DNA of 64,000 nt, taken from contig WQSX01000002.1 in assembly GCA_009787625.1 (NCBI GenBank), positions 1 to 64,000 of the forward strand. Direction: 5' to 3'. Position 1 is the first letter of the stretch. Every line of letters begins with the position of its first letter. The DNA is from Oscillospiraceae bacterium (GTDB lineage: Bacteria; Bacillota; Clostridia; Oscillospirales; Oscillospiraceae). This document shows, one piece after another, positions 31,861-57,192 of this stretch. The translations under genes were made by a program, and so were the position numbers. Below the pieces are notes generated by a model. That model was given only the letters and a program-made list of their open reading frames with translations. It did no database searches and had not been told where the DNA came from.

Positions 31861-31899
31861 TCCACAAATGCGCTTTTTGTCGCATTTGTGGATTTTTTG
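31861..31899 (+). terminator. Rho-independent terminator after the aldolase-like gene
   Basis: Perfect 12-base stem (TCCACAAATGCG) with an 8-base loop, followed by TTTTTTG. Confidence 0.9.
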
Positions 31900-32037: not shown

Positions 32038-32201
32038 TTTCATCTGCTTCTAGTTGTTTTTCTCATTTTATGCACCTTTAATAAACATTTTTTCTATATT
32101 TATAATGCTAACTCTTCTCAATGTCACTCAGTTGCAAGGCATGAGAGCTACTGTAGACTCTTGTCTTTTGAGAAAAGCGAAGGAAAGGAATAATCATCAA
32201 A

Positions 32202-33521
32202 ATGAAAGCAAAAAAAGTATCACTGATTTCAATAATAGCCATCTTAATGCTCTTTGTGCTCCCTTTTGGACACATTGCATCTGCATTTACCGCCTTTAGC
32301 CGTGGCTCGGGTGAAATTACATTTGTAAATCCTAATGAATGGATTATTCAGTTCTTCGCAAACAACGTAATGCCGGGTAGCGCTCCTAACGCGCCTGAGC
32401 AACTGGAACTCCGTTACATCAAAGACGGCGCAAGATTGAGTGAAAGAACACCAACACATGCTCAGTTTTCTCCGCCTGATGCACCGTCAGGACATTTCTA
32501 TCGTTTCATCGGTTGGAATACCGAAAGAAACGGCACGGGAGACAGCTTTACACACACTGAAATTTCAGTTCTTCCCATCACAAAACATATGTGGCTTTAT
32601 GCACAGTGGGGCTTAGAGCGTGAAGTAGTAAGCTCAACGCCGCCGAGTCCGACGCCGTCGCCGAGCCCAACACCGCGGCCCCAAGTCTCACCAACACCGA
32701 GACCTGCATCCCCATCAATCCCTACACCGGCAGCTCCGACGCCGACACCCACGCCATTTTTACCGGGTTCAACCTCTCCCTCAACCCCGGCACCTCCTAC
32801 GCCGGCACCGCCTGTGCCCGCTGCTCCCGCACCTGTGGCTCCCGCAGCTGCTGTGCCACCTGCTGCCACAGCAGCGGTTCCGGCTCCTCCCGAGACAGAC
32901 GAGTCGGATAGTGAACTCACAACTTTTGATGAGCCCGGCGAGAGCGAACCCGATATCGCAAGGCAAAGCGAACCTGCCGAAGATGAAGATGAATACCTCA
33001 CGGTTGATGATATGGATGATCCGAGCGGAACGCTTGAAGTTGCAAACGGTGACACCCCACTATTTGGAGGGGTTCCCCTGTTTTCCACAAACGGCACTCC
33101 AACTTGGGCTCTTCTAAACCTGATACTTGCGGCACTCGGAATAACTCTTGCCATGCTCGCTCTACTCAAGCGGACTATCGCAGATAGCAAAAAGCACCAA
33201 GACAATGGGCAGGAATATATCATCCAAGCAGATAGCACACAAGAGGGCAATGCTTCACTCACTTCACGTAAATCCCTCTGGCTCATAATCGGAAGTGTCT
33301 CAGGTGTTGTTGGCGTTATGCTTTTCATAGTTTTCCAAGACATCACTGCACTTATGGTATGGGTAGACTCTCTGACAATTTTCCATATTGTCATCTTCGT
33401 AATAGGCACTGTCGCTGCAATACTCGCAACTCGTCGTGATAAAGACGAAGACGACACAGACGATGAACTCAGCTGGAGCGCCTCGCAAGATGCACCTGCC
33501 ACCGCACAAAAGGTAGTGTAG
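32202..33521 (+). CDS. Membrane-anchored surface protein with InlB-type repeat and Pro-rich stalk
   Basis: A 439-residue protein. The signal peptide (about 1-28) ends at ASA. Residues about 75-145 hold a Listeria-Bacteroides (InlB B-type) repeat, visible from GHFYRFIGWNTERNGTGDSFT and LYAQW. A Pro/Thr/Ser-rich stalk of PTP repeats follows (about 146-235), then an acidic stretch. Three hydrophobic segments (about 297-320, 358-380, 390-411) anchor the C-terminus. The stalk would project the repeat through the wall. It is the first gene of the WxL-like operon and may present or anchor the other products. No sortase motif is present. Confidence 0.8.
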   Translation: MKAKKVSLISIIAILMLFVLPFGHIASAFTAFSRGSGEITFVNPNEWIIQFFANNVMPGSAPNAPEQLELRYIKDGARLSERTPTHAQFSPPDAPSGHFYRFIGWNTERNGTGDSFTHTEISVLPITKHMWLYAQWGLEREVVSSTPPSPTPSPSPTPRPQVSPTPRPASPSIPTPAAPTPTPTPFLPGSTSPSTPAPPTPAPPVPAAPAPVAPAAAVPPAATAAVPAPPETDESDSELTTFDEPGESEPDIARQSEPAEDEDEYLTVDDMDDPSGTLEVANGDTPLFGGVPLFSTNGTPTWALLNLILAALGITLAMLALLKRTIADSKKHQDNGQEYIIQADSTQEGNASLTSRKSLWLIIGSVSGVVGVMLFIVFQDITALMVWVDSLTIFHIVIFVIGTVAAILATRRDKDEDDTDDELSWSASQDAPATAQKVV

Positions 33522-33632
33522 TAACATCATTAGTGGCGAAGTGCAAAATTGCCTAATTACACTACATGGTTTTACGAATAAAAACAGCCTGCTTCCATAA
33601 GGTAGGAAGGGCAAAAAGAAAGGAAATATATC

Positions 33633-34370
33633 ATGAAGAAATACCTAGCAATAGTGGTCTTGCTGGCATTGCTCGTATCAATCGGCACTGCCGCATATGC
33701 AACCAACGCAAAAGGTCATGCAGACATCAAGTTTATTTCGTTTGACGGCATTGACGATGGTGTGTATGACCCTGACGACGGAGAGTTGGACGACGAGCGT
33801 TTGCCTGAGTGGATGGATCAGCTCTCGGGAATGTCGCTCCCCTTTGGTCAACACGAGATTTCAATTGCAAATGAAGTCTACGACTCACTGATTGGCGTGC
33901 CTGTCGCAGGGCAAGACCCCGATGATGAAAATGCGATAACAGGTGGCACGGGTGTTTTAGTCGTCGGAATGCGTAGCGGCGAGTGGAAAGTGCAGTTAAC
34001 GCCGATAGCAAGTGGATTTCGATACACACAGGCTGCAATCAATGATGAATCAATCCGTGGTCAGGAAACCCTTAAAGACTACAGGCTGTCTCTGCAGCTT
34101 GACAAGCAGTGGGCGACACAAAACACCAAGCCCGTAACGGTGAGCTCACACACACCGCTCTTGCCGGACACAGCAGGTCACATCACAGGCGGGTTCACAT
34201 TTGCAGGGTATACCGATACCATTCTCGACAACACAACCGCGGGCGACCTCGGTGTATTTGGAGCTAATTTCAACGCTCAGCTCTTTGCACCCGCTGCATC
34301 TGTAACAGTCGCAGGCGAAGCACAGACAATCTTAGACTGGACATTCGTTTTAGATTCAATTCGCGAATAA
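33633..34370 (+). CDS. WxL-like secreted surface protein, short
   Basis: A 245-residue protein with a signal peptide (about 1-24, ending AYA). The first half is rich in Asp. The WxL-like landmarks are a first Trp motif (SGEWKVQLTPIASGF, about 116-130) and a terminal ILDWTFVLDSIRE. The family is known to bind the cell wall non-covalently through this C-terminal domain. The last motif is W-T-F instead of the classic W-x-L. The 111-base gap after the first gene contains a short hairpin but no T-run, so readthrough is likely. AAAGGAAA precedes the ATG. Confidence 0.7.
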   Translation: MKKYLAIVVLLALLVSIGTAAYATNAKGHADIKFISFDGIDDGVYDPDDGELDDERLPEWMDQLSGMSLPFGQHEISIANEVYDSLIGVPVAGQDPDDENAITGGTGVLVVGMRSGEWKVQLTPIASGFRYTQAAINDESIRGQETLKDYRLSLQLDKQWATQNTKPVTVSSHTPLLPDTAGHITGGFTFAGYTDTILDNTTAGDLGVFGANFNAQLFAPAASVTVAGEAQTILDWTFVLDSIRE

Positions 34371-34416
34371 GAAGGGTAACAGAGGGCAGGGGTAAGAACA
34401 ACGGAGGGGTGGCAAC

Positions 34417-35466
34417 ATGCACAAAGCAATCAAATCACTCGCAACAATTATAGCGATTGCACTGCTATATGCGCTCGCCGCCCCCCTAACTTTAGCAGCT
34501 TCCGACTCATTTTCTGTAGCTCCCGTGCTCCCTGAAAACCAAAGTCCGGAGTCTCTGGGCTCATTTAACTTAGATGTAATGGCAGGGCAAACTCAAGAGA
34601 TAGAGGTGCTTGTATCAAACCCAAGCAGTGATTTTATCACAGTGGAAGTGTCACTGCTCACACCGGGCACAAGCAGGAGCGGAGTCATTGACTTTTCACA
34701 ATCAGGAACCCTTGACGAGACACTTGACACCTCATTTGCGGACATCGCAGAGCTAAAAGTTGAGTCCACCATAACAATTCCGTCAGGTGCAACGGCAGTG
34801 GTGCCGATAGCCTTACATATACCAAGCGATGGATTTGAGGGCGTTGTCTTCGGCGCAATCCATGTACTTCTAACAGTTTCCGAAGAGGAAATGGCGCAGG
34901 CAGGGCAGTTTGTCAACAGATTTGCGCAGGTTATTCCTGTAAGACTGTTTGTTGACAGGGCAAACACGATAATTTCGGATTTTCAGCTTGGCGACATCGA
35001 ACTTAGTCTGGTTGCAGGTGTTGCAGCACTCGAAGCAAACATAAGAAATCCACAGCCGCGCTTTTGCATTGGTGCGATGGTTGGTGCAGAGATTTATCCT
35101 AAGGGAACAAGCACTCCGATTTTCACCGTTGCCGACCTTGAAGTTGATTTCGCCCCAAATTCGGTCTATCCGCTGACAATGCTCGACAACGCCGGTTACG
35201 GAATCTTGACAGGTGATTATGTGGCAAACATATCAGTCGAGTTTGGTGGGTCGGTATGGATTTTTGAGCAAGATTTTCATATCTCACGAAACACATCAAA
35301 CGAAGTAAATTCAAACGCTATAAACCAACAAGCCCCACCAAATCTGCTGCGTCAAGAATCATCACTTTCAAGCCTTATACTATGGATTGTCGTCGGCTCT
35401 GCGGGTTTTGTGCTCGTACTGTGTACAGCAATTATGGTAGTAGTTAGGGTAAACAAGAATAGGTAA
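34417..35466 (+). CDS. WxL-interacting protein (DUF916/DUF3324 type) 1
   Basis: A 349-residue protein with a signal peptide (about 1-28) and a DUF916-like domain (about 30-150), opening FSVAPVLPENQ and SLGSFNLDV, with GFEGVVFGAIHV near its end. A DUF3324-like domain (about 160-290) follows, with NIRNPQPR and VDFAPNSVYPL. A C-terminal membrane helix (about 322-344) and a short basic tail end the protein. In Lactobacillales, such proteins bind WxL proteins and peptidoglycan. GGAGGGGTG precedes the ATG. Together with the second copy at 36159 it frames the WxL-like gene at 35501. Confidence 0.85.
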   Translation: MHKAIKSLATIIAIALLYALAAPLTLAASDSFSVAPVLPENQSPESLGSFNLDVMAGQTQEIEVLVSNPSSDFITVEVSLLTPGTSRSGVIDFSQSGTLDETLDTSFADIAELKVESTITIPSGATAVVPIALHIPSDGFEGVVFGAIHVLLTVSEEEMAQAGQFVNRFAQVIPVRLFVDRANTIISDFQLGDIELSLVAGVAALEANIRNPQPRFCIGAMVGAEIYPKGTSTPIFTVADLEVDFAPNSVYPLTMLDNAGYGILTGDYVANISVEFGGSVWIFEQDFHISRNTSNEVNSNAINQQAPPNLLRQESSLSSLILWIVVGSAGFVLVLCTAIMVVVRVNKNR

Positions 35467-35500
35467 GTTAAATAACAGGAGAGAGGAGTGGAGATTAACG

Positions 35501-36142
35501 ATGAAACACAAAATAAAGAACCCTCTTACAGTAATTGCGATAATTTTAACAACTCAGCTATTAACACTCGGCGTGTTTGCCGACAGCTCTTTACCGCAAG
35601 AACCGCCACATCTCAGTGATAGCTCACAGGCAGAGGCGACATTTAGCTCCCCCGATGTTAATGAAGGGATAGAGCCAAATCCTGACGGTGGTATAAACGG
35701 ATTAAATTACGACTTTTTAGAGCGGTCAGTCAACTTTCTCAACGTAAGTTATGATGCCGCCGCTCCTGCATATATGCGAGTCACATCAACTTTGCCGTGG
35801 TCAGTTTCAGTGAGCATAACACCCTTTGCTCAGACAGCCGCATTAAATGAAAAAACAATCGAAGGTTTCACCATGAACCTAAACCCCACTGCAATCACAA
35901 GCCTCCACCCGGACACCCAAAGCAGTGCAACAGTCACACCACAGGTGCTGCGCGCACTTGACAGTGAGGGCAACCCGACACAAGTCGGAGTGCAAGGGGC
36001 AAACACTCCGCCTATTGCACAAGGTGGAGTGGGCATTTGGAATCTGCAAATCCCGGCTGTCTTAAACGTACTCGGAAGCACCGCCCACGTGGGCAGTGCA
36101 ACAGCACAAATAAATTGGATTTTCGTACAGACCGTACCATAA
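35501..36142 (+). CDS. WxL-like secreted surface protein, short
   Basis: A 213-residue protein with a signal peptide (about 1-27, ending FA). Motifs typical of WxL domains are LPWSVSVSITPF (about 105-116) and the terminal ATAQINWIFVQTVP, again with W-x-F. The middle part holds a TQVGVQGANTPPIAQGGVGIWNLQIP segment. It is probably cell-wall associated through the C-terminal domain and held by the DUF916 partners on either side. GGAG sites precede the ATG, and the next gene follows by 16 bases. Confidence 0.7.
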   Translation: MKHKIKNPLTVIAIILTTQLLTLGVFADSSLPQEPPHLSDSSQAEATFSSPDVNEGIEPNPDGGINGLNYDFLERSVNFLNVSYDAAAPAYMRVTSTLPWSVSVSITPFAQTAALNEKTIEGFTMNLNPTAITSLHPDTQSSATVTPQVLRALDSEGNPTQVGVQGANTPPIAQGGVGIWNLQIPAVLNVLGSTAHVGSATAQINWIFVQTVP

Positions 36143-36158
36143 ACAGGAGTAGCCAAAG

Positions 36159-37340
36159 ATGCACAAACCCATGCGAATATCATTAGTATTAAATTTCAGA
36201 ATGCTCTGTAGTTATCTTACAGCACTTCTTATCGTTTTAAGCACTTTCGCTTTGATCACTGTCAGTGCAGCGGCAATCGGCGGAGGTTTTGCAGTGACAC
36301 CCATTTATCCCGAAAACCAAGTCCCTGAAACTATCGGATTTTTCGACCTGCACGTGACCCCCGGAATGAATCAAACAATAGCCATAAGCATTACTAACAC
36401 TGTTTCGGAAGAAGTTACCGTATCGACCACGACATTCACCCCAACAACAAACATAAACGCAATTATAGACTACGGCGCACCCGGCGCACCCGATGAAACA
36501 CTTGTCTTGGATTTTGCGAAGATAGCTGTCCCCGAGCGGGAACTCACAACACTCACTCCCGGCGAGACAAAGGAACTGTCTATTAACATATCCATTCCCG
36601 ATGAGGGGTTTGAGGGCATTATACTTGGTGTGATACACACAATAAAAAGCATAACAGCTAAGGAGCTTGCAGAAGCAGAGGAGACAGGCGGAATAATCAG
36701 CAGATACACGTTTGCACTCCCTGTCAGGCTTCAAATCTCATATGATGAAATAGAACCTCAGTTACTTCTCGGCGAAATCTCCACACGGCTTGTAAATCAC
36801 AGAGCAGCGGTTGTGGTGGAGATAAGAAATCCGCTACCTAGAATCACAAGATATGTCACAGGAAGAGCAGATGTGTTCCCTTATGGAAAGCGCAAACCAA
36901 CTTTGACAAAAGAAGATATCGAAATTGAATTTGCGCCAAACTCGGTATTTCCCATGGCACTCGTAGATGAAGCGGGCATTGGGCTTAGCGAAGGAAAGTA
37001 CACAGTCGCAGTAACTCTGGAGCATGAGGGCAGGGTCTGGGAGTTCATTGAGGATTTTGAAATACAAGCCACAGAGGCACATCTTATAAATGAGGGAGCC
37101 TTAAATCTGCAAACAGCCTCTGATCAAAGGCTTCTGCCGGATATACTGCTTTGGCAAGCCATTGTACTCATTGCAATTACCATAATTACGCTGGTCGTAA
37201 TAGTGACTACGATAAAATATATAATAAGCAACAGGAAATCAGATGTTGAGTTAAATCAGTTCTTGTCAGATACGTTAAGGGCAAGAGAGCTCAGAAGTAT
37301 ATCGAGTAACTGCAAAGATTGGAGAAAATATGATGATTAG
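36159..37340 (+). CDS. WxL-interacting protein (DUF916/DUF3324 type) 2
   Basis: A 393-residue protein with a signal peptide (about 1-39). The DUF916-like domain starts FAVTPIYPENQVPETIGFFDLHV and includes GFEGIILGVIHT. The DUF3324-like domain shows VEIRNPLPR and IEFAPNSVFPM. A membrane helix (about 325-350) is followed by a longer cytoplasmic tail of about 40 charged residues than in the first copy. The two partners are clearly paralogous, so the operon may have grown by duplication. The gene overlaps the start of the giant protein gene by 11 bases, which suggests coupled translation. Confidence 0.85.
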   Translation: MHKPMRISLVLNFRMLCSYLTALLIVLSTFALITVSAAAIGGGFAVTPIYPENQVPETIGFFDLHVTPGMNQTIAISITNTVSEEVTVSTTTFTPTTNINAIIDYGAPGAPDETLVLDFAKIAVPERELTTLTPGETKELSINISIPDEGFEGIILGVIHTIKSITAKELAEAEETGGIISRYTFALPVRLQISYDEIEPQLLLGEISTRLVNHRAAVVVEIRNPLPRITRYVTGRADVFPYGKRKPTLTKEDIEIEFAPNSVFPMALVDEAGIGLSEGKYTVAVTLEHEGRVWEFIEDFEIQATEAHLINEGALNLQTASDQRLLPDILLWQAIVLIAITIITLVVIVTTIKYIISNRKSDVELNQFLSDTLRARELRSISSNCKDWRKYDD

Positions 37341-40300
37341 ATATTCTACAGGCGTTAAGAGAGTTTTTGCTCTTGTGCTGGCTGTCACAATGATAGTTGG
37401 CTTGACTTCCTTTGCACTGGGAGCCGTGGGTGAGGGCGAGCCCCCTCATGAGCGGGAGTCCGATGAGGGGATAATCGTTGCCGATGAGGCAGCGTTTTTA
37501 GGTTCGCACGACGAAAACAACACGCTCGGTAATGAGCTTGATATTGACTCCGGATTGACTTTTGATAACTTGCATGAAGAAAACTTAAGCGGCGAGCCAA
37601 TTGCAAGCTCTGATAGCGAAGCTTTTTCAGACGACGAAGCAGCCCTTGATGATGAAACTCCGCAAGCATATGATGATTCTTCTCCCGATGATATTTTTTC
37701 CGATAATACACCACCCGACACCGCCACCCCCGGTAATGCGAGCAGTTTGACTGTATCACATCTTGAAATAATTGCGCCATCAGCAGTTGTGCATGTAGGC
37801 TCAGATTTCGACGAATTGAGCGACGTTCAAGTTCGCGTGTTTTTCACAGACACCACATGGGAATATGGCATTCTTGGGCAAAATGTGAACCTTACATATG
37901 AACTTCCGAACGGGTACAGCCTTGAATCAAGTCCCGCGCAGTGGCAGATAAGATACGATGCGTCTCTCAGGAACGGGCATACATGGAACAGCCCCGATGA
38001 CCGTGCAACTCATGCTTTCAGGCTCGTTACAGTCATCGACCCCGATGCAGACATGGGTGCACACATCGTAAACATAAACGGCATAGATATATTCGACCTC
38101 GGTTTAAGTGAAGGCAGACAGTTTGAAGTTGAGCTTTTCTACACTCCGCTTGAACATCAGCACGACAAAGGCCGCTATGTCAGACTTCTTCTTCCTGACT
38201 TTCTTGGTTTTGAATTCAGCGTTATCCCTCCTCAGACCAATACACCTTTTAAAATTACAGAAGTATCCTTAAAAGAAGTTATAATAAAATTTGACGACGG
38301 CTCCATTCCGGGCGAATCTCTAATACCGATTTCGTTCATTCATCGTGTCTCACGTGAACTCTCACAAACACCCATTCCTCCATCGTTTGAGGTGATCGCA
38401 TACTCATACCGCGGACTTGAGTCTCCACCGGACAAAGATACAGCCGAGCCATTTCTCCACGAGACCAGCACTTGGGAGTTTTCAGCACCCGTTCACCCCA
38501 TAAGCACACTTCGTGTAAATTCATTTTCGCCGGCAAATGCACATGCCGTTATAACGACATTTTCCCCCGTTGCCGGAGTGGGCGAGAGCACTCACACTTT
38601 CACAGCACGCAATCTGATAAAACCCGCAGCAATGCGCTCAACTCAGGACAACACGCTTCGCGTACTTGTCCCTGTGCCTGAAGATTTGGATACAATCGGA
38701 GTCACACCTATTGCCGCCGATTCAACAACACTGATTGAAGTAGACGGCAACCTCTACTGGCGGGGAGCTGCTTTGACACCCAGTAACAACCCCGGCACTG
38801 GTTCGTGGGCGTTCATGGAAGCATTGTGGGGTCCGCCGCGTATAAACACCGCAGGCTCAACAGCGAACATATCTGTCAATCCTCGATTCAGAGGTGTTAC
38901 CAATGAAATAATTCAAAATCCACGTTCATTCACTTCAGAGCGTCCTGTTTTAGTTGAATTTTTTCAGGCAGGTGAACTTCAGCGTGAACCGCTTCTTAAC
39001 AAAGACGGTGAGCCGCAGACTTACACCGTTACATTTGGTCGCTTTGGCGTAGCAGACTTCGACTTGCAAGCTTTTAATCAGGTTAGTACAGTACTCGAAA
39101 GCATAGGTAGCAGACCTTTTAGGGTTCAGGGCACAAGCGACGGCTTTCCCTCATCAGGTCGATGGAGTAGTCTGGAGTTTCGCCCCACACGCTATACAAA
39201 TAGCGCCGAAATGCCACAAGTGATCTACGAAGACATGGTTATAAGCCTCGGACCGTTTGTGCCCGAAATGCGCCCGATAGGTGTCACAATGAACCCTCGC
39301 TATGGCGAAGCGCACTTTGAATACACTCTTGAAAACGGGGATATAAAACGCTCACCTGCACCTGCTATGTCATACAGGTTCGATGTCGGCGATAGCTACG
39401 TTCGAAGCGTAAAGATACTTCCTGTAGAGATAAATGTCCAAAATCAGGGGGCGCCGGTTGTTAATACACTGGCGGTACCTCAAACATGGGTGTTCAGACT
39501 CTCAAGCACATATCTCAGGCATGATACTGCAGGCGGGTCTTTGGCTAGTATTCACCCCGCAAATTTTGATGTCCAAATCGACTCAGAGCAACATGGACTA
39601 CACAGACCAACCAGATCGCAGAATTTTGACTTGCGGCTTTATCATGAAGTCCTGCGTTATGACTGTGCAATGACGGTTCCCCCTGCCACAGCCGCTAATG
39701 ACGGTTGGCAGGGTGATAAAGATAATCTCTTACACTTTTGGCCTCGCATAAATGACATGAACTCCGCAAGAGACCATGTGTTCAATGATGTGAGTCTACG
39801 GTTTACTGTTAACCCTGCAGTGAATGTAAGAGGCATTTTACTACGCTCCGGTGTCACAAACGAGGAAAACAACATAACCGTTCACTTTAGCGAGGGTGGG
39901 CCTGAAACTCATATTCTCACGAGGTCAGACGCTCAGGCGGATATGCTGATGTTCACAGGGCTATCATCTACTCGCTACGTCACACGCATTGACTTTAACG
40001 GCGTCGACATTCAAGACAATCTCAATGTCGATGGTTCTCCTCTGTGGAGCGTAGATAACCCACACTTTACTCTGCTCGCTGACTATAGCTACAAAGAGGA
40101 CCTCAAAGGCGCAAAAATGCATCCGAGACATGAATCACGCTTTGGTCTTACTATCTTTCTCGATGGCTCATCTACTCCCTTCACTCCCGTCTCACCAACA
40201 AGAGGGGACTCGTCAAACCTGTCGGTATGGCTTAACAGCTTTTATGAGTCGGATTTTTCCATTTTACCACGCTCGACTCACTTCTACGTATTTCCCGAAG

Positions 40301-43300
40301 AGAGCAGGCATACCTCGAATTCTATAATCGCGGCATTTTTGACTCAGGAGAGACCTCAGGAGTCAATAGGGGTAAGTCACGTCAATAACGGCACACTTTT
40401 GGCATTGTCGGATGTGGAGTTTGTCTTAAACGCTGAAAATACCTCTCAGGAGTTTTTGAAAAGCCTCAGCGGGTATGCCAAAGGTTCAAATTTGCCTGAC
40501 ACGTCAGTCGTCACTTTTTTCTATACCTTAAATACCGGGGAGAAGATAACTGAAATAATGCCTGCACATTCGATACAAACAATTCGCTATGCTAACCCCA
40601 CTGATTATATAACCGAGCTCCGAATAACCATAACGGATGTGCCGCAGCGTGAACGGGGTACTCAAATCACAGTAAACGAAACACTAAACCGTTTTTCACT
40701 GATACAGCTTCACATAAATCTCCATAGATACAAAACTGCCAACAACGGCATCGACTTTGAGAAAATAGGTGTCACAGACACGCTCGCTCCTGTGAGCGGT
40801 ACAGTAAAGACCGTTTCGGAGCGCGGAGAAACAGTTCAAAATATTGACGGAAATGCGGGGATGTTCATCGTTCCGTGGGGTAATGACCTCTATGTCTCAG
40901 CTCTCGGACTCAATCACACATTATCACGAGTCGGCGAAAATCCCCCGGCAATCGACATTAACATGATAACCGGTGGTTTTAATAACCCAACAACAGGCGG
41001 AGGTCAACAGACAACTGTTATAAATAATCCCGGATTTTGGCCGGGGCAGACCCTGCAAGTTGATGTCAGAAACATTCTATCCGCTGCATTTGACAGGGAG
41101 GGTCATGATGAGAGAATAGGGTCAATTGTACGCGAAGACAGCTTGCCAAGAGGTTTTGCAATCAGACCTATCTATTCCTCAGGCGTAACTCATAGAAGCT
41201 GGGTAGGAACAGCTACAAACGATGAACTCACAAATGTTGTTGTGTACATTCCGGTAGAGCCGGGCTTTAGCTTGGTCCCCGGCACAATGAAGCTCATGCG
41301 AAACAACAGTGAACGCGAGGGCGCAGTGAGAGATATCAGCGTTGTACCAAGCCCCGAGGGAACATGGCTCAGAGTTGATCTGGCGAACTACAGACCGTCA
41401 GGTCTCAGAGGAGGAGTTCAGGCGAGCTTCATCTCTGGTGCTCTGCAAAATACAACTGAAAACTTCCCCGGCACAAACTCCCTTGGTGGTGCAGCAAACT
41501 TCACAGGCGGTGACATTCTCAGGTTTGAGCTTCGTGCATCAGACTTCATTCCATGGGATACAACAGGTAGCCGTCCTGTGATACGCGGGCAATACTATGT
41601 AGATGTCGCAAATATCGGGTTCACAGGCAAGGGCGATGTGAAGTTCTACAGCCCGGAAGGCTTGACAGATAACGACGGCAACCGCTTTATCTCAGGTGGT
41701 CTTAAAGGACAAAACGAACCACCTGCATCTATGGTGCGCAGGAATGTCGGTCCTGTCGGTTCAAGCTCGTTGGTTCTCGAAAACACAAACCCTCTCACAA
41801 TAAGGTTCAACAGAGTAAACCAGCCGTCATCATCATCTTTGGCACATGAAACCCCTTACCACTTTCCGGATACAAGCCATAAACTCGGCGACTTGCGTGT
41901 GCGTATAAATGCGCCGTCACAACAGGTTGGCATATTTGGGCTAAGCACAGTAGGCGGCGACAACTTAACCGAATCTCCAAATAACGACACAAGATACCAC
42001 AACCACGAGAGTGTTGGTGTCACAGTCCGCGCTTCGCATATATCTACGTTTGGTGTTTCATCAGCAGATTACATGATCTATGTGGAAGTTCCAAAGTCAG
42101 GCTGGGGCAACCTAACCCACCCCGGACTCAGTCTCTCAGGACCTGCCGGAACTCTTGAGGCTCCGCCAAACAACTCTTCAGTCTTTGAGTACACCGTTAC
42201 TACAAACCTGAGTGATGCAATGGAGCAAAACCCAAGCGACGGAACTTGGCTCAGTGAAGAGGAGTTACTGAAAAACTTTTCATGGAAAGATGTCACAATG
42301 GTTCGCATAAGTGTTACAGGTGTCGGCAACCATCCGTTTTTGTATAATCTTCCAATGGAAAACCGTGCAGACAAGAGCTTCCTCGGAGATCAGAAAATCG
42401 TGTCCTCCATACATTTTCGCTCACCACAGATAGAAAGCAATGCGCTTCGCTCTGTGCAAGCACTGCCGACATTCACGCTAACTGACTATACTGTTGAAGG
42501 TTTCCTGTGGCATGATGAGATGAACTCAGGTCAGATGGATAAGTCAAGCGAAAAGATTACGGGAGCGGTAAGAATGATACATCCCACAAACTTTGTGTCC
42601 GCATGGATCCCCGCAACACCCGAGGGTGGGTTTAGTGTAAAGGTCCCGGTCTTTAACCCTGAAGGAGGAAGTCTCGGTGCATACAGGCTTGAAGTTGCGG
42701 CACCCGGCTTTGAGCCACTCTATGTGAATATCGACGGTACAGACGACTCAAGGTTCAACGACCAAGGTGACGGCACAGGTTACCGCTACCTGCGTGTTAG
42801 CACGACTCGCACCACAGTAAACGCAGGATTCAAAGAGTCTCCAAACGTGAGCATTGTATATCTGAACGTCGATGGCACACCCCATGCCTTTGACGTCGCA
42901 GAGATTGGCACTACAATCACTGCACCTTTAGAGTCGGCAACGCCGCCCGGCAGTCACTATGACTTTATGGGTTGGATTCAGAGCGACAGTGCGGGTGAGC
43001 CTATTTCAACGCATACTTGGCAAGGCACATTTTCACTCACCGTGCCGCCTCTGGTTGCACCGATTGAACACCGCGACGTAATATATTTTGTTGCCCTATG
43101 GAAATTTAACCCACCGCTTGCCTTTAGCGCACCCTCTATCTTAGATTACGGAGTCATACGCCCGCAATTCGGCACAAATTTCATAGAGTTGCCGAGCTTG
43201 CCCGCAAGTGACGATAGACCGGCACAAGACCCTGCGACAACCGTAAACTTTCATGTTTCAGCAGGTGAACACATACCAAGTTGGCGCATTGATGTACGCC

Positions 43301-43590
43301 ACGACACAGCCATAAACCTGCGCCACCGTGAGCACAGCCCGGAAAATCCAAAGAGATTAGACCCAAGTGCACTGTCGTTCATAGCAGGAAACTCACCGAT
43401 TTTCGGCGCATCACAAAAAGTCTACACCTATAACGATGCAGACAAATGGCAAGACGGCGTATATACAATAAACTGGCTAAACCTACAAAACCGCCTACGC
43501 ATAAGAACAAGCTCTCCGCTAATAGAGGTAGACACAACAGAAAAACTGAAAACGCCAATAAACTGGATATTCATCCCCGCTGCCCCGTAA
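37330..43590 (+). CDS. Giant WxL-like surface protein (adhesin-like)
   Basis: A 2086-residue secreted protein. A signal peptide (about 1-32, ending ALGA) is followed by an acidic Asp/Glu/Ser-rich linker (about 33-135), then a long beta-rich body (about 140-1720) with no family I can name. Residues about 1722-1820 look like an SdrD-B/Cna-B-type module (GFLWHDEMNSGQMD). About 1838-1920 is an InlB-type repeat ending VALWKF. The C-terminal 155 residues are WxL-like, with PSWRIDVRHD and the terminal PINWIFIPAAP. The size and modular end suggest an adhesin or matrix-binding protein held on the wall. GGAG precedes the ATG inside the upstream gene. A hairpin terminator follows 14 bases after the stop. 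Confidence 0.8.
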   Translation: MMIRYSTGVKRVFALVLAVTMIVGLTSFALGAVGEGEPPHERESDEGIIVADEAAFLGSHDENNTLGNELDIDSGLTFDNLHEENLSGEPIASSDSEAFSDDEAALDDETPQAYDDSSPDDIFSDNTPPDTATPGNASSLTVSHLEIIAPSAVVHVGSDFDELSDVQVRVFFTDTTWEYGILGQNVNLTYELPNGYSLESSPAQWQIRYDASLRNGHTWNSPDDRATHAFRLVTVIDPDADMGAHIVNINGIDIFDLGLSEGRQFEVELFYTPLEHQHDKGRYVRLLLPDFLGFEFSVIPPQTNTPFKITEVSLKEVIIKFDDGSIPGESLIPISFIHRVSRELSQTPIPPSFEVIAYSYRGLESPPDKDTAEPFLHETSTWEFSAPVHPISTLRVNSFSPANAHAVITTFSPVAGVGESTHTFTARNLIKPAAMRSTQDNTLRVLVPVPEDLDTIGVTPIAADSTTLIEVDGNLYWRGAALTPSNNPGTGSWAFMEALWGPPRINTAGSTANISVNPRFRGVTNEIIQNPRSFTSERPVLVEFFQAGELQREPLLNKDGEPQTYTVTFGRFGVADFDLQAFNQVSTVLESIGSRPFRVQGTSDGFPSSGRWSSLEFRPTRYTNSAEMPQVIYEDMVISLGPFVPEMRPIGVTMNPRYGEAHFEYTLENGDIKRSPAPAMSYRFDVGDSYVRSVKILPVEINVQNQGAPVVNTLAVPQTWVFRLSSTYLRHDTAGGSLASIHPANFDVQIDSEQHGLHRPTRSQNFDLRLYHEVLRYDCAMTVPPATAANDGWQGDKDNLLHFWPRINDMNSARDHVFNDVSLRFTVNPAVNVRGILLRSGVTNEENNITVHFSEGGPETHILTRSDAQADMLMFTGLSSTRYVTRIDFNGVDIQDNLNVDGSPLWSVDNPHFTLLADYSYKEDLKGAKMHPRHESRFGLTIFLDGSSTPFTPVSPTRGDSSNLSVWLNSFYESDFSILPRSTHFYVFPEESRHTSNSIIAAFLTQERPQESIGVSHVNNGTLLALSDVEFVLNAENTSQEFLKSLSGYAKGSNLPDTSVVTFFYTLNTGEKITEIMPAHSIQTIRYANPTDYITELRITITDVPQRERGTQITVNETLNRFSLIQLHINLHRYKTANNGIDFEKIGVTDTLAPVSGTVKTVSERGETVQNIDGNAGMFIVPWGNDLYVSALGLNHTLSRVGENPPAIDINMITGGFNNPTTGGGQQTTVINNPGFWPGQTLQVDVRNILSAAFDREGHDERIGSIVREDSLPRGFAIRPIYSSGVTHRSWVGTATNDELTNVVVYIPVEPGFSLVPGTMKLMRNNSEREGAVRDISVVPSPEGTWLRVDLANYRPSGLRGGVQASFISGALQNTTENFPGTNSLGGAANFTGGDILRFELRASDFIPWDTTGSRPVIRGQYYVDVANIGFTGKGDVKFYSPEGLTDNDGNRFISGGLKGQNEPPASMVRRNVGPVGSSSLVLENTNPLTIRFNRVNQPSSSSLAHETPYHFPDTSHKLGDLRVRINAPSQQVGIFGLSTVGGDNLTESPNNDTRYHNHESVGVTVRASHISTFGVSSADYMIYVEVPKSGWGNLTHPGLSLSGPAGTLEAPPNNSSVFEYTVTTNLSDAMEQNPSDGTWLSEEELLKNFSWKDVTMVRISVTGVGNHPFLYNLPMENRADKSFLGDQKIVSSIHFRSPQIESNALRSVQALPTFTLTDYTVEGFLWHDEMNSGQMDKSSEKITGAVRMIHPTNFVSAWIPATPEGGFSVKVPVFNPEGGSLGAYRLEVAAPGFEPLYVNIDGTDDSRFNDQGDGTGYRYLRVSTTRTTVNAGFKESPNVSIVYLNVDGTPHAFDVAEIGTTITAPLESATPPGSHYDFMGWIQSDSAGEPISTHTWQGTFSLTVPPLVAPIEHRDVIYFVALWKFNPPLAFSAPSILDYGVIRPQFGTNFIELPSLPASDDRPAQDPATTVNFHVSAGEHIPSWRIDVRHDTAINLRHREHSPENPKRLDPSALSFIAGNSPIFGASQKVYTYNDADKWQDGVYTINWLNLQNRLRIRTSSPLIEVDTTEKLKTPINWIFIPAAP

Positions 43591-43661: not shown

Positions 43662-44690
43662 CTACAAAACAATATCGTACAACTCTCTGCAAATTTCCTC
43701 TTTGACGTCGAAGAATGCTTCAACGATTTTTGGATCGAAATGTTTGCCTTTTTCGGAAGCGATGATTTCGAGCGCTTGCTCGGCGGGAAACTCTTCTTTA
43801 TATATGCGCTTTGACATCAGCGCATCAAAAACATCTGCGATTGCCATAATCCGCCCTTGAAGCGGAATGTCCTCTCCCGACAGACCATAGGGATAGCCTT
43901 TTCCGTCCCAATGCTCATGGTGAGATACGGCAAAAAGTTTAGCGTTGTGTAAAAACACATTTCCACCGCTGCGAGCAATAATAGTCTCTATGATATTCTC
44001 ACCGTAAACCGCATGGCTTTTCATGATGTCATATTCCTCGCTTGTAAGCTTCCCCGGCTTTTTTAAAATGGTGTCGGCAACCTTTATTTTGCCGACATCG
44101 TGCAGTAGCGAACACTCCGACATCAAATCAAAGTCCCAACCTGAAATTTGCTCCTCATAGACACTTTTTTCCAACATCCGCTTCAGCAAAATCTTAACAA
44201 TATAACTCGTGCGCCCCAAGTGGTCCCCTGTCAGTTCATCCCTATTTTCCACCACGTCCGCAAGTACAAAAACCACGTCACGGTTTGCATTGTAAAGCTG
44301 AGCCGTCCTCTCCCGCACTAGTTCTGCTATGCCGATGTGATGTTTTACTCTGTTGAGCAACACAGCGGGATTAAAAGGCTTGCTTATAAAGTCAACAACT
44401 CCCATTTCAAGCGCTTTACTCTCTGTCTCGTGATCTTTTTTTGCCGTTAAGAAAATAACGGGAATCTCTTTTAGCCGCTCATCATTTCTTAAATGGCGGA
44501 ACACATCAAACCCGTCTATCTCCGGCATTTCAATATCCAGCAGAACAATATCAGGGATCATCTTCTCCAAACGTTCAATTGCCTTTGTCCCGGAGGGAAT
44601 TGTCCTCACTGCGTAGTATGGGCTTAAAACCTCTGAAATTGTAGTTAAGTTACTGATGCTATCATCTACAACAAATATCGTCTTTTTCAT
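43662..44690 (-). CDS. Response regulator with HD-GYP domain
   Basis: A 342-residue protein with an N-terminal receiver domain (phospho-acceptor Asp52 in LLDIEMP, Lys in ISKPF) and a C-terminal HD-GYP domain. The latter shows LLHDVGKIK with His197-Asp198, HHEHWDGKGYPYG with Gly265-Tyr266-Pro267, and ADVFDALMSKRIYKE. Intact HD-GYP motifs predict hydrolysis of cyclic di-GMP. The start overlaps the kinase stop codon by 4 bases (ATGA), so the pair is a two-component unit. The TAG stop is part of a family A half-repeat. Confidence 0.93.
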   Translation of the reverse strand: MKKTIFVVDDSISNLTTISEVLSPYYAVRTIPSGTKAIERLEKMIPDIVLLDIEMPEIDGFDVFRHLRNDERLKEIPVIFLTAKKDHETESKALEMGVVDFISKPFNPAVLLNRVKHHIGIAELVRERTAQLYNANRDVVFVLADVVENRDELTGDHLGRTSYIVKILLKRMLEKSVYEEQISGWDFDLMSECSLLHDVGKIKVADTILKKPGKLTSEEYDIMKSHAVYGENIIETIIARSGGNVFLHNAKLFAVSHHEHWDGKGYPYGLSGEDIPLQGRIMAIADVFDALMSKRIYKEEFPAEQALEIIASEKGKHFDPKIVEAFFDVKEEICRELYDIVL

Positions 44691-54615: not shown

Positions 54616-57150
54616 TTATTCCGGTGTTTCCGCAACCTCTGTTACAGTTTCGCCGCCCTCTTCGTCCTCGAACTCTTCTTCATCGTCTTTCTCTGTTCTG
54701 GCGATGCAGATGACCTCGGCGTCAGAACCTGTGCGCATCAGGCGTACTCCTTGTGTCGCCCTGCCGTAGGTGCTTATGTCAGATGCCGCCATGCGGATGA
54801 TTGTTCCGTCGTCTGAGATAATCAGCACATCATCATTGTCGTCAACAACCTTGACATCGGAAACCTTGCCGGTCTTTTCTGTTATAATGTAGTTTTTCTT
54901 ACCATAACCACCACGGCTTTGAACTCCACCCTCGTCACCTCTGAAATACTCACTTATTTCGGTGCGCTTGCCGTAACCGTTTTTCGTAACCGTGAGAAGT
55001 GAACCACCCTCACGGGCTCTTGCCGCCCCAACGCAATAATCACCTTTTCTCAGACGAATACCGCGAACACCTGCGGCAACACGCCCCATAGGTCTGACAT
55101 CAGTTTCATTAAAGCAGATAGCCATGCCGTTATGGGTGGCGATTAAAATTCTCTGTTTCCCATCAGTTTCACGCACGGCAATAAGCTCATCGTCCTCGCC
55201 TATAGTGATTGTGCGAATTCCTACATTTTTGATATTTTTCAGCTCACTGAGCTTCATCCGCTTGACAGTTCCGCTCCTTGTGACCATTACAAGAAACTCA
55301 TCTTCGCCAAACTCACGCACACGAATCATAGCAGAGACTTTTTCTCCCGGATGAACAGGAAGTACGTTGACAATGTTCGTACCCCTTGCCTGACGGCCTG
55401 CCTCGGGAATCATGTACCCTTTCTTGCGATAGACCCTGCCCTGATTTGTGAAGAACAAGATAAAGTCATGGGTTGAAGCGGTAAACAACGTCTCAACATA
55501 GTCCTCATCACGTGTGGTCATAGCAGTGATACCTTTTCCTCCACGCCTTTGAGCCTTATATGTGTTTGCAGGCAGACGCTTGATGTAGCCCGCATGTGTG
55601 AGCGTGTAGACGCATTCTTCCTCATCAATGAGATCCTCAATGTCAATCTCATCTTCGACCACTGCAATCTCGGTGCGGCGCTCATCGCCGTATTTATCGC
55701 GGATTTCTGTTATCTCTTCAATCAAAACAGCATCCATCTTGCCTTGGTCAGAGAGAAGCATTAGGAAATATTCAATCTTTTTTTGAAGCTCGGCATATTC
55801 GTTTTCAATCTTTTCAATTTCAAGCCCTTGTAAGCTTCGCAGGCGCATTTCTAAAATAGCCTGGGTCTGCAACTCACTAAGCTCAAACCGCTCCATCAAA
55901 CGCTCTTTGGCGTTATCATAACTGGTGCGAATGATATGAATAACTTCGTCAATATTGTTGCAAGCAATACGCAAACCTTCCAAAATATGCGCCCGCTCAC
56001 GAGCTTTTTTCAAATCATATTCGGTACGCCTGCGAATAATTTCACGTTGAAACGTGATGTATTCATCGAGAATTTGACGAAGTGACAAAATACGAGGCTG
56101 GCTCTGGTCGTCCACAAGCGCAAGCAAGACAATTGCAAAAGTCGTCTGCATTTGAGTCTGCGTATACAGGCGGTTTAGCACAACCTGAGTGTTTGCATCA
56201 CGCTTTAGCTCGATGACAATGCGCATACCATCCCTGTCGGACTCATCACGCATAGCCGAAAGTCCCTCAATACGCTTATTTTTGACGCACTCAGCGATAG
56301 ACTCCAAAAGTCTCGCCTTATTTACCTGATATGGCAGTTCATTGACAATAATTCGCTCACGACCGCCGCCGAACTCTTCAATCTCGGTTCTCGCCCGAAC
56401 CCGAATGCGCCCTCTGCCCGTAGCATAAGCCGCTCTGATACCTGCGCGGCCCATGATAATACCGCGAGTCGGAAAATCGGGTCCCGTAATATGCTCCATC
56501 AAATCATCTAATTCAGCTTCGGGATTATTCATAACGCAGATAACTGCATTTATAACTTCCGTGAGATTATGCGGAGGAATATTCGTAGTCATACCAACGG
56601 CAATACCGCTTGAGCCGTTTACGAGCAAATTCGGGAACCTCGACGGCAGAACACGAGGTTGCTTACGAGTTTCGTCATAGTTAGGATCCCAGTTTACAGT
56701 TTCCTTACCGATATCACGGAGCATTTCATCAGAAATCTTTGAAAGACGCGCCTCGGTATAACGCATAGCCGCAGGCGCATCACCATCAACAGAACCAAAG
56801 TTACCATGCCCTGAAATTGTCATATAACGCATGGAAAAATCTTGCGCCATTCGCACAAGTGCATCATAAATCGAAGCATCTCCGTGCGGATGATATTTAC
56901 CCATGATATCACCAACCGCAGTAGCTGCCTTACGAAACGGCTTATCGCTGGTAAGACCACTCTCATGCATGGAGTATAAAATGCGCCTGTGAATGGGCTT
57001 TAACCCATCACGCACATCAGGAAGCGCCCTGTCAATAATAACCGACATAGCATAGGTGAGAAACGAAGTCTCCATCTCTTCCTCAAGCGGCGCAGTAATT
57101 ATAACTTGTTCGGGATAACTGATATCCCCTGTCTTTTCTTTCTTAGGCAT
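54616..57150 (-). CDS. gyrA: DNA gyrase subunit A
   Basis: An 844-residue breakage-reunion subunit of gyrase. The active-site Tyr131 lies in AAMRYTEARL. The QRDR reads HPHGDASIYDALVRMAQ, with Ala92 at the position equivalent to E. coli Ser83 and Asp96 at Asp87. The C-terminal beta-pinwheel contains the GyrA box QRRGGKG, which separates gyrase from topoisomerase IV. An acidic tail (DDEEEFEDEEGG) ends the protein. The ATG at 57150 follows GAGG; a TTG two codons earlier is the longest start. It is last in the dnaA-gyrA cluster. Confidence 0.98.
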   Translation of the reverse strand: MPKKEKTGDISYPEQVIITAPLEEEMETSFLTYAMSVIIDRALPDVRDGLKPIHRRILYSMHESGLTSDKPFRKAATAVGDIMGKYHPHGDASIYDALVRMAQDFSMRYMTISGHGNFGSVDGDAPAAMRYTEARLSKISDEMLRDIGKETVNWDPNYDETRKQPRVLPSRFPNLLVNGSSGIAVGMTTNIPPHNLTEVINAVICVMNNPEAELDDLMEHITGPDFPTRGIIMGRAGIRAAYATGRGRIRVRARTEIEEFGGGRERIIVNELPYQVNKARLLESIAECVKNKRIEGLSAMRDESDRDGMRIVIELKRDANTQVVLNRLYTQTQMQTTFAIVLLALVDDQSQPRILSLRQILDEYITFQREIIRRRTEYDLKKARERAHILEGLRIACNNIDEVIHIIRTSYDNAKERLMERFELSELQTQAILEMRLRSLQGLEIEKIENEYAELQKKIEYFLMLLSDQGKMDAVLIEEITEIRDKYGDERRTEIAVVEDEIDIEDLIDEEECVYTLTHAGYIKRLPANTYKAQRRGGKGITAMTTRDEDYVETLFTASTHDFILFFTNQGRVYRKKGYMIPEAGRQARGTNIVNVLPVHPGEKVSAMIRVREFGEDEFLVMVTRSGTVKRMKLSELKNIKNVGIRTITIGEDDELIAVRETDGKQRILIATHNGMAICFNETDVRPMGRVAAGVRGIRLRKGDYCVGAARAREGGSLLTVTKNGYGKRTEISEYFRGDEGGVQSRGGYGKKNYIITEKTGKVSDVKVVDDNDDVLIISDDGTIIRMAASDISTYGRATQGVRLMRTGSDAEVICIARTEKDDEEEFEDEEGGETVTEVAETPE

Positions 57151-57192
57151 AAACAAACCTCAATTTCAAAATTTGCATCAGACAAGCAGATT

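Follow-up and report, generated by a model that had tools for sequence, protein, structure and literature searches.

What kind of cell-surface system is encoded by the six consecutive genes at positions 32202-43590 of contig WQSX01000002.1 of an Oscillospiraceae bacterium, and does the unusual W-x-F motif near the ends of three of its products set it apart from known systems? The window analysed here is the whole stretch of 64,000 nucleotides at the start of this contig. An original prediction, made from the letters alone, had read the locus as a WxL-like operon with an anchored stalk protein, two DUF916/DUF3324 partners and three secreted proteins with WxL-like C-terminal domains. Six co-oriented open reading frames (ORFs) were indeed located there on the + strand, as are all features of the operon given below, and encode proteins of 439, 245, 349, 213, 393 and 2086 residues (genes 1 to 6). 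The genes are separated by gaps of 111, 46, 34 and 16 bp, and genes 5 and 6 overlap by 11 bp. A hydrophobic N-terminal segment of the secretion type is present in all six proteins, and a purine-rich stretch is visible by eye 5' of each start codon.

The locus is probably a divergent WxL (Csc-type) cell-surface operon, in which the giant protein of gene 6 would be clamped at the wall through a WxLIP, and a FILTED protein would replace CscD. Directly supported by the sequence comparisons are two WxLIPs, two small proteins that are WxL homologues by way of intermediates, a stalk anchored by FILTED, and a giant whose C-terminus has the layout of a WxL domain. In the following, G000 is the source genome and C2, C16, C27, C15 and C40 are its contigs; other G numbers are compared genomes and L numbers are loci.

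The two WxLIPs and the FILTED-anchored protein

Genes 3 (34417-35466, CscA-like) and 5 (36159-37340) encode full-length WxLIPs composed of PGBD, HBD and a C-terminal transmembrane helix (hydrophobic segments at residues 324-342 and 334-352). Both passed the Pfam cut-offs of PF06030 (E 3.8e-25 and 1e-27) and PF11797 (E 4.1e-19 and 5.5e-23); the DUF916/DUF3324 match, whose failure would have spoken against the original prediction, thus held. The ectodomain of EfmWxLIP1 of Enterococcus faecium (9i1y) was matched over its whole length by gene 3 (E 2.1e-32) and gene 5 (E 3.1e-30). Thus the WxLIPs of the E. faecium locus A (9i1y, 9i25) resemble those of the window over both domains (E 3e-30 to 2e-32) and share their fold, whereas identity in the structural alignment is only about 27%; this comparison is one of WxLIP with WxLIP. 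Where the published N-terminal motif NQIDKxxxYFDLK would lie, the two proteins read NQSPESLGSFNLDV and NQVPETIGFFDLHV; they keep NQ and F-[DN]-L but lack IDK and the last K.

Identity between the two WxLIPs is 35.8%, while it is about 60% between either of them and the corresponding protein of G005, a second species in the genus. Each pairs with that protein in a tree of 22 WxLIPs (support 100/100), and therefore the doubling of the WxLIP predates the split of the two species. The set of FILTED protein, first WxLIP, small protein, second WxLIP and giant is also kept in G005, where no counterpart of gene 2 lies between gene 1 and the first WxLIP. Very divergent pairs of a WxLIP and a small protein, with the second Trp changed to Tyr, were met at L050:7488-9332 and L051:7784-9631.

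Gene 1 (32202-33521), which stands in the position of the LPxTG protein CscD, encodes a signal-type N-terminus, a Pro/Thr/Ser-rich stalk and a C-terminus matching the FILTED family NF052597 (79.9 bits, cut-off 40; genome match at 33105-33455). The stalk is thus anchored as had been proposed, by a FILTED segment that contains three hydrophobic stretches. One weak segment like a Listeria-Bacteroides repeat (PF09479, E 0.014) was below the cut-off. Gene 1 passes the cut-off like other FILTED surface proteins, but it differs from them in that it sits in a WxL-type operon. Three of the five FILTED matches in G000 open its three WxL-type operons (C2, C16 and C27), and FILTED also occupies the gene-1 position in L016, G005 (L027) and G010. 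LPxTG-like ends were found in this position in L015 and L017 (NF033073, E 1.7e-6 and 3.8e-6, both below the 48-bit cut-off), with a sortase gene near the operon in L017. These facts place a FILTED membrane anchor where an LPxTG partner would be expected. The profile search in ten genomes besides G000 found FILTED in five and gave no match in G007, G008, G009, G021 and G190; the phrase 'FILTED domain' itself had no match in the literature searched. The idea that FILTED substitutes for a missing sortase was rejected: sortase matches were found in all ten genomes examined, G000 included, and FILTED is therefore no stand-in for an absent enzyme. The two remaining FILTED-anchored surface proteins of G000, on C15 (L013:4162-6234) and C40 (L014:5806-9450), lie outside WxL operons, the latter beside a gene that looks by eye like one for a sigma factor.

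C-terminal domains of the small proteins and the giant

Genes 2 (33633-34370) and 4 (35501-36142) encode small CscB-like proteins, and gene 6 (37330-43590) encodes the giant, CscC-like secreted protein. Their tails are ILDWTFVLDSIRE, INWIFVQTVP and INWIFIPAAP, which contain DWTFV, NWIFV and NWIFI as originally quoted, and the W-x-F triplets lie at 34338-34346, 36116-36124 and 43564-43572. At the first Trp site, W-K-V, W-S-V and W-R-I were read by eye, and at the second W-T-F, W-I-F and W-I-F. None of the three thus has the two W-x-L motifs of a classic WxL domain.

Profile comparisons link these domains to the WxL family in genes 2 and 4, and in both cases through intermediates only. Two related proteins of G000, the small protein of C16 (C16_s, E 7.9e-5) and the large one of C27 (C27_L, E 0.0047), gave PF13731 matches below the 25-bit Pfam cut-off; a PF13731 search of the whole genome gave one match, of 21.4 bits, on C16. 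For gene 6 the assignment is made by layout alone, i.e. the order LDYG ... SWRIDV ... NWIF in its C-terminal region (43033-43587). The giant is conserved in G005 (61.9% identity across 2063 aligned residues), as is gene 4 (62.9%), and in a BLASTP comparison with the other large proteins gene 6 found, apart from itself, just G005_L and 73 residues of L016_L (E 0.058). In the PDB, the complex 9i25 was found by the profile of the large domains and by a single large domain, from G190 (E 0.0055), and not by individual classic WxL proteins.

Several results weigh against the WxL assignment. The PF13731 search, named beforehand in the original prediction as a check, matched none of the three C-termini at E<=1, and none of the three proteins passed any NCBIfam cut-off. 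With a hidden Markov model (HMM) of classic WxL alone, genes 2, 4 and 6 did not score above shuffled sequences. Gene 6 matched nothing in Pfam or NCBIfam at E<=1, it reached 2.2% against classic WxL by hhalign, and with its two-row profile two shuffled sequences outscored the best relative. The large domains as a group reached 90.8% against classic WxL with C27_L in the profile and 29.2% without it. A PDB search with the profile of the small WxL domains missed 9i25, and the AlphaFold2 (AF2) model of gene 4, built from five rows, had a pLDDT of 35.8. The layout pattern, which was drawn up after the family had been seen, matched 10 of the 35 listed family proteins, genes 2 and 4 not among them. 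Finally, the C-terminal part of the WxLIP fusions of G008 and G009 (see below) is WxL by layout only, with E 0.72 and 0.48 to the classic HMM and 2.0% by hhalign with G007. Among 500 column shuffles made as an hhalign control (five alignments, 100 each), seven gave about 99.6% over just 2-19 aligned columns, and in a smaller set (60 each) such values occurred in two of the five alignments; they were read as an artefact of the program, and only matches over long stretches were counted.

The lack of a direct PF13731 match, the profile results of gene 6 and the AF2 model of gene 4 would also suit unrelated beta-sandwiches that came to adjoin WxLIP genes. This is very unlikely: genes 2 and 4 do reach WxL via intermediates, C16_s and C27_L match PF13731 as described, and each domain is C-terminal, lies beside a WxLIP and carries a tail Trp.

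Of the 114 ORFs of at least 150 residues in eight loci, 14 have W-x-[LFIVM] within their final 15 residues, 11 of these being tail proteins of WxLIP operons and three unrelated; for W-x-F alone the count is six, one of them unrelated. Across 20 complete tail proteins, which adjoin 13 WxLIPs of one clade, the residue two past the tail Trp is L in eight, F in five, V in two, I in two, and T, H and G in one each. These proteins were picked by their place and by the tail as read by eye, and therefore the constancy of the Trp is partly a product of selection. G005_L and the large protein of L017, which run into contig ends, the fourth G010 copy, which is split over two loci, and the next secreted gene of G007 (L028:9907-11937), which has no such tail, were left out of the count. 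Beyond this clade, G021, G129 and G167 have lost the second Trp. The kept feature seems to be the Trp rather than the W-x-L triplet, and motif and Pfam scans would therefore miss such proteins.

Phe at the third position is shared by the three window proteins, the small G005 protein and C16_L, and the neighbouring WxLIPs do form a supported clade; a WxL/Csc-type operon with a giant is thus distinct, as had been supposed, at the level of this clade (13 WxLIPs, 100/98). W-x-F was rejected as the marker of a subtype, since the third position varies both inside the clade, where 15 of the 20 tails are not W-x-F, and inside G000, where the C27 operon has the classic W-T-L. That the motif marks a separate subtype with its own wall ligand is highly improbable: in the available extract of the published WxL models (PMC9772566) the Leu side chains of W-x-L are placed in a buried platform, with no ligand role. 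Because of this placement the change from Leu to Phe is more likely one of packing than of ligand.

Two further observations concern these tails and domains. In G010, four large WxL-type proteins stand in tandem 5' of the WxL operon (L071:6884-14499 and L026:3-3244), with repeats that look by eye like beta-helices and a similar C-terminal domain. In G743, an LPQTG protein (L067:15067-15747) beside a gene judged by eye to be TasA-like contains a VDWIFV strand, a possible look-alike of the W-x-F tail; a TasA/camelysin-like origin of the W-x-F strand would be a speculative reading of it.

Likely arrangement and function of the complex

The locus is related to the Csc/WxL clusters known from Lactobacillales, Listeria and Enterococcus, and would function as they do. 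It shares with them, in one operon, a full-length WxLIP with a transmembrane helix, an anchored partner protein, and secreted proteins, both small and large, that carry a tail Trp. What differs, and by what the known system is extended, is that the motifs are relaxed to W-x-[F/V/I], that the giant has 2086 residues, whereas about 500-1000 are given in the extract of PMC9772566, that there are two WxLIPs, whereas the extract of Siezen 2006 (PMC1534035) gives a single cscA per cluster, and that FILTED stands in the CscD position instead of LPxTG. Gene 1 is not a small LPxTG-anchored CscD, which is usual but not obligatory in a Csc cluster.

In the arrangement that we consider probable, the C-terminal helix of each WxLIP would keep it in the membrane, and the WxLIP would clamp the C-terminal WxL domain of its partner, one strand completing the beta-sandwich of the latter. 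Such an arrangement was predicted for the E. faecium pair, and an entry of a WxLIP-WxL complex exists (9i25). In this way the giant could be fixed to the wall while its long N-terminal part points outward as a predicted adhesin-like arm. The FILTED protein may replace the sortase-anchored CscD peptide, and Phe, Val or Ile in place of Leu would alter packing in the buried platform and not the ligand.

The three named relatives are metagenome-assembled genomes (MAGs) of the series Lab288P1, which we take to be of termite-gut origin, and this origin would suit a complex for the capture or breakdown of plant polysaccharide on the cell surface. The same function was proposed by Siezen and colleagues for the Csc clusters of Lactobacillus plantarum (extract of PMC1534035). 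It seems rather unlikely here: gene 6 lacks any Pfam or NCBIfam match, as noted above, and an adhesin binding a plant polymer would fit as well.

A pilus-like fibre, in which the WxLIPs would be membrane-tethered donor-strand chaperones and the small WxL subunits would polymerise through their N-terminal strands, is unlikely. The WxLIPs may resemble chaperone-usher chaperones (Caf1M, FimC, PapD) in that the mutual arrangement of their two immunoglobulin-like domains looks roughly similar, and strand donation is the mode predicted for the E. faecium WxLIP by AF2 (extract of PMC10599100). However, the root-mean-square deviation of 5.8-7.6 A may reflect just a common two-domain arrangement, and in the Foldseek results the first chaperone comes at rank 32, behind RbmA and transglutaminases. 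WxLIPs differ from these chaperones in their C-terminal transmembrane helix, no such chaperone appeared in the sequence match lists shown for the two window WxLIPs, and a polymer of WxL proteins is not described in the available extracts of the literature.

A broader form of this comparison would make the WxL system the one-membrane counterpart of chaperone-usher assembly: the WxLIP would be a tethered PapD-like donor-strand chaperone, the WxL domains would be incomplete sandwiches, and the exchange strand that builds a multi-subunit stalk for a giant tip would be the short N-terminal strand of the small proteins, on a D/P-rich tether. We regard this as quite unlikely. If it were true, each window WxLIP would serve its own WxL partner, and the fusions of G008 and G009 would be co-translated pairs of chaperone and subunit. 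In these fusions (L030:732-3239 in G008, L031:794-3253 in G009) a single reading frame joins a WxLIP to a C-terminal part with the WxL layout, and the same parts are encoded by separate neighbouring genes in a third species of the genus (L028). Natural fusions of this kind and the comparison with the PapD-like fold make the assembly mechanism directly testable.

Distribution and genomic setting

Returning to the Csc-type operon, its apparent host lineage is a further difference from the known clusters. The window is apparently from Clostridia, judging from the GyrA identities given below, whereas Csc clusters were not found in clostridia according to the extract of Siezen 2006 (PMC1534035), and WxL domains are stated to occur almost wholly in Bacilli in that of Hassan and Williamson (PMC9772566). 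A WxL/WxLIP-type system is thus placed in a genus that is apparently clostridial, whereas almost all reported ones come from Lactobacillales and Bacillales (extract of PMC10599100). PF06030 was above the cut-off in 7 of 119 relatives, 3 of 300 genomes of the family and 3 of 391 of the class, where the samples overlap and each includes G000, and in five of the 18 other genomes of the genus; PF13731 was above it in two of 398 genomes of a phylum sample. Thermotoga maritima, a control genome outside Bacillota, also had PF06030 above the cut-off.

When named genomes were scanned with two narrow peptide patterns, three loci were found, all in the Lab288P1 MAGs, two of which are labelled Defluviitaleaceae and one Oscillospiraceae. 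The supported clade of the WxLIP tree joins ten WxLIPs of the window's genus with three of these clostridial MAGs and leaves out G021 of the same family and G190, G129 and G167 of the same class. GyrA of the named MAGs is 54-58% identical to that of the window, compared with 57% for a genome of its own class and 87% for G007, whereas their WxLIPs are nearer to those of the window than are the WxLIPs of G007, G008 and G009. The patchy presence and the discord between GyrA and WxLIP suggest horizontal spread. An alternative is fast change in G007-G009, which sit on a long branch.

The operon lies near oriC, as had been noted: gyrA (54616-57156) is followed by gyrB, a RecF/SMC-type gene, dnaN and dnaA, reaching 63593. 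Upstream, a terminator-like hairpin with a 12-bp stem and a T6 tail (31861-31892, 3' of an aldolase gene) was found by pattern scan only, and a promoter-like site TTAATA-17-TATAAT (32078-32106, 5' of gene 1) by consensus match only; the counts are close to chance, with 15 terminator-like sites (shuffle mean 12.1) and 19 promoter-like sites (shuffle mean 14.1). Taken as a marker for an empty site, the flanking aldolase has a nearly full-length counterpart in two of the 18 other genus genomes (G013 and G004; 19 genomes compared including its own).

Genes on the opposite strand 3' of the operon encode a response regulator with an HD domain and a hybrid histidine kinase. The HD-domain gene, used as a query for the same purpose, matched dozens of paralogues across the 19 genus genomes (its own included); the response regulator (43662-44690) was matched 77 times in G000 and up to 94 times in the genus (G002), receiver domains included; by these matches the genus is signalling-rich. 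The window operon has no LuxR-type or ECF-like (extracytoplasmic function) regulator as its direct neighbour. Three WxL operons are adjoined by LuxR-type regulators that show MalT-like features (L012:10565-13165, L026:3447-6035 and L017:5044-7614), and sigma-70-family (ECF-like) factors were found upstream of two others (L011:4453-5289 and L016:6420-7079).
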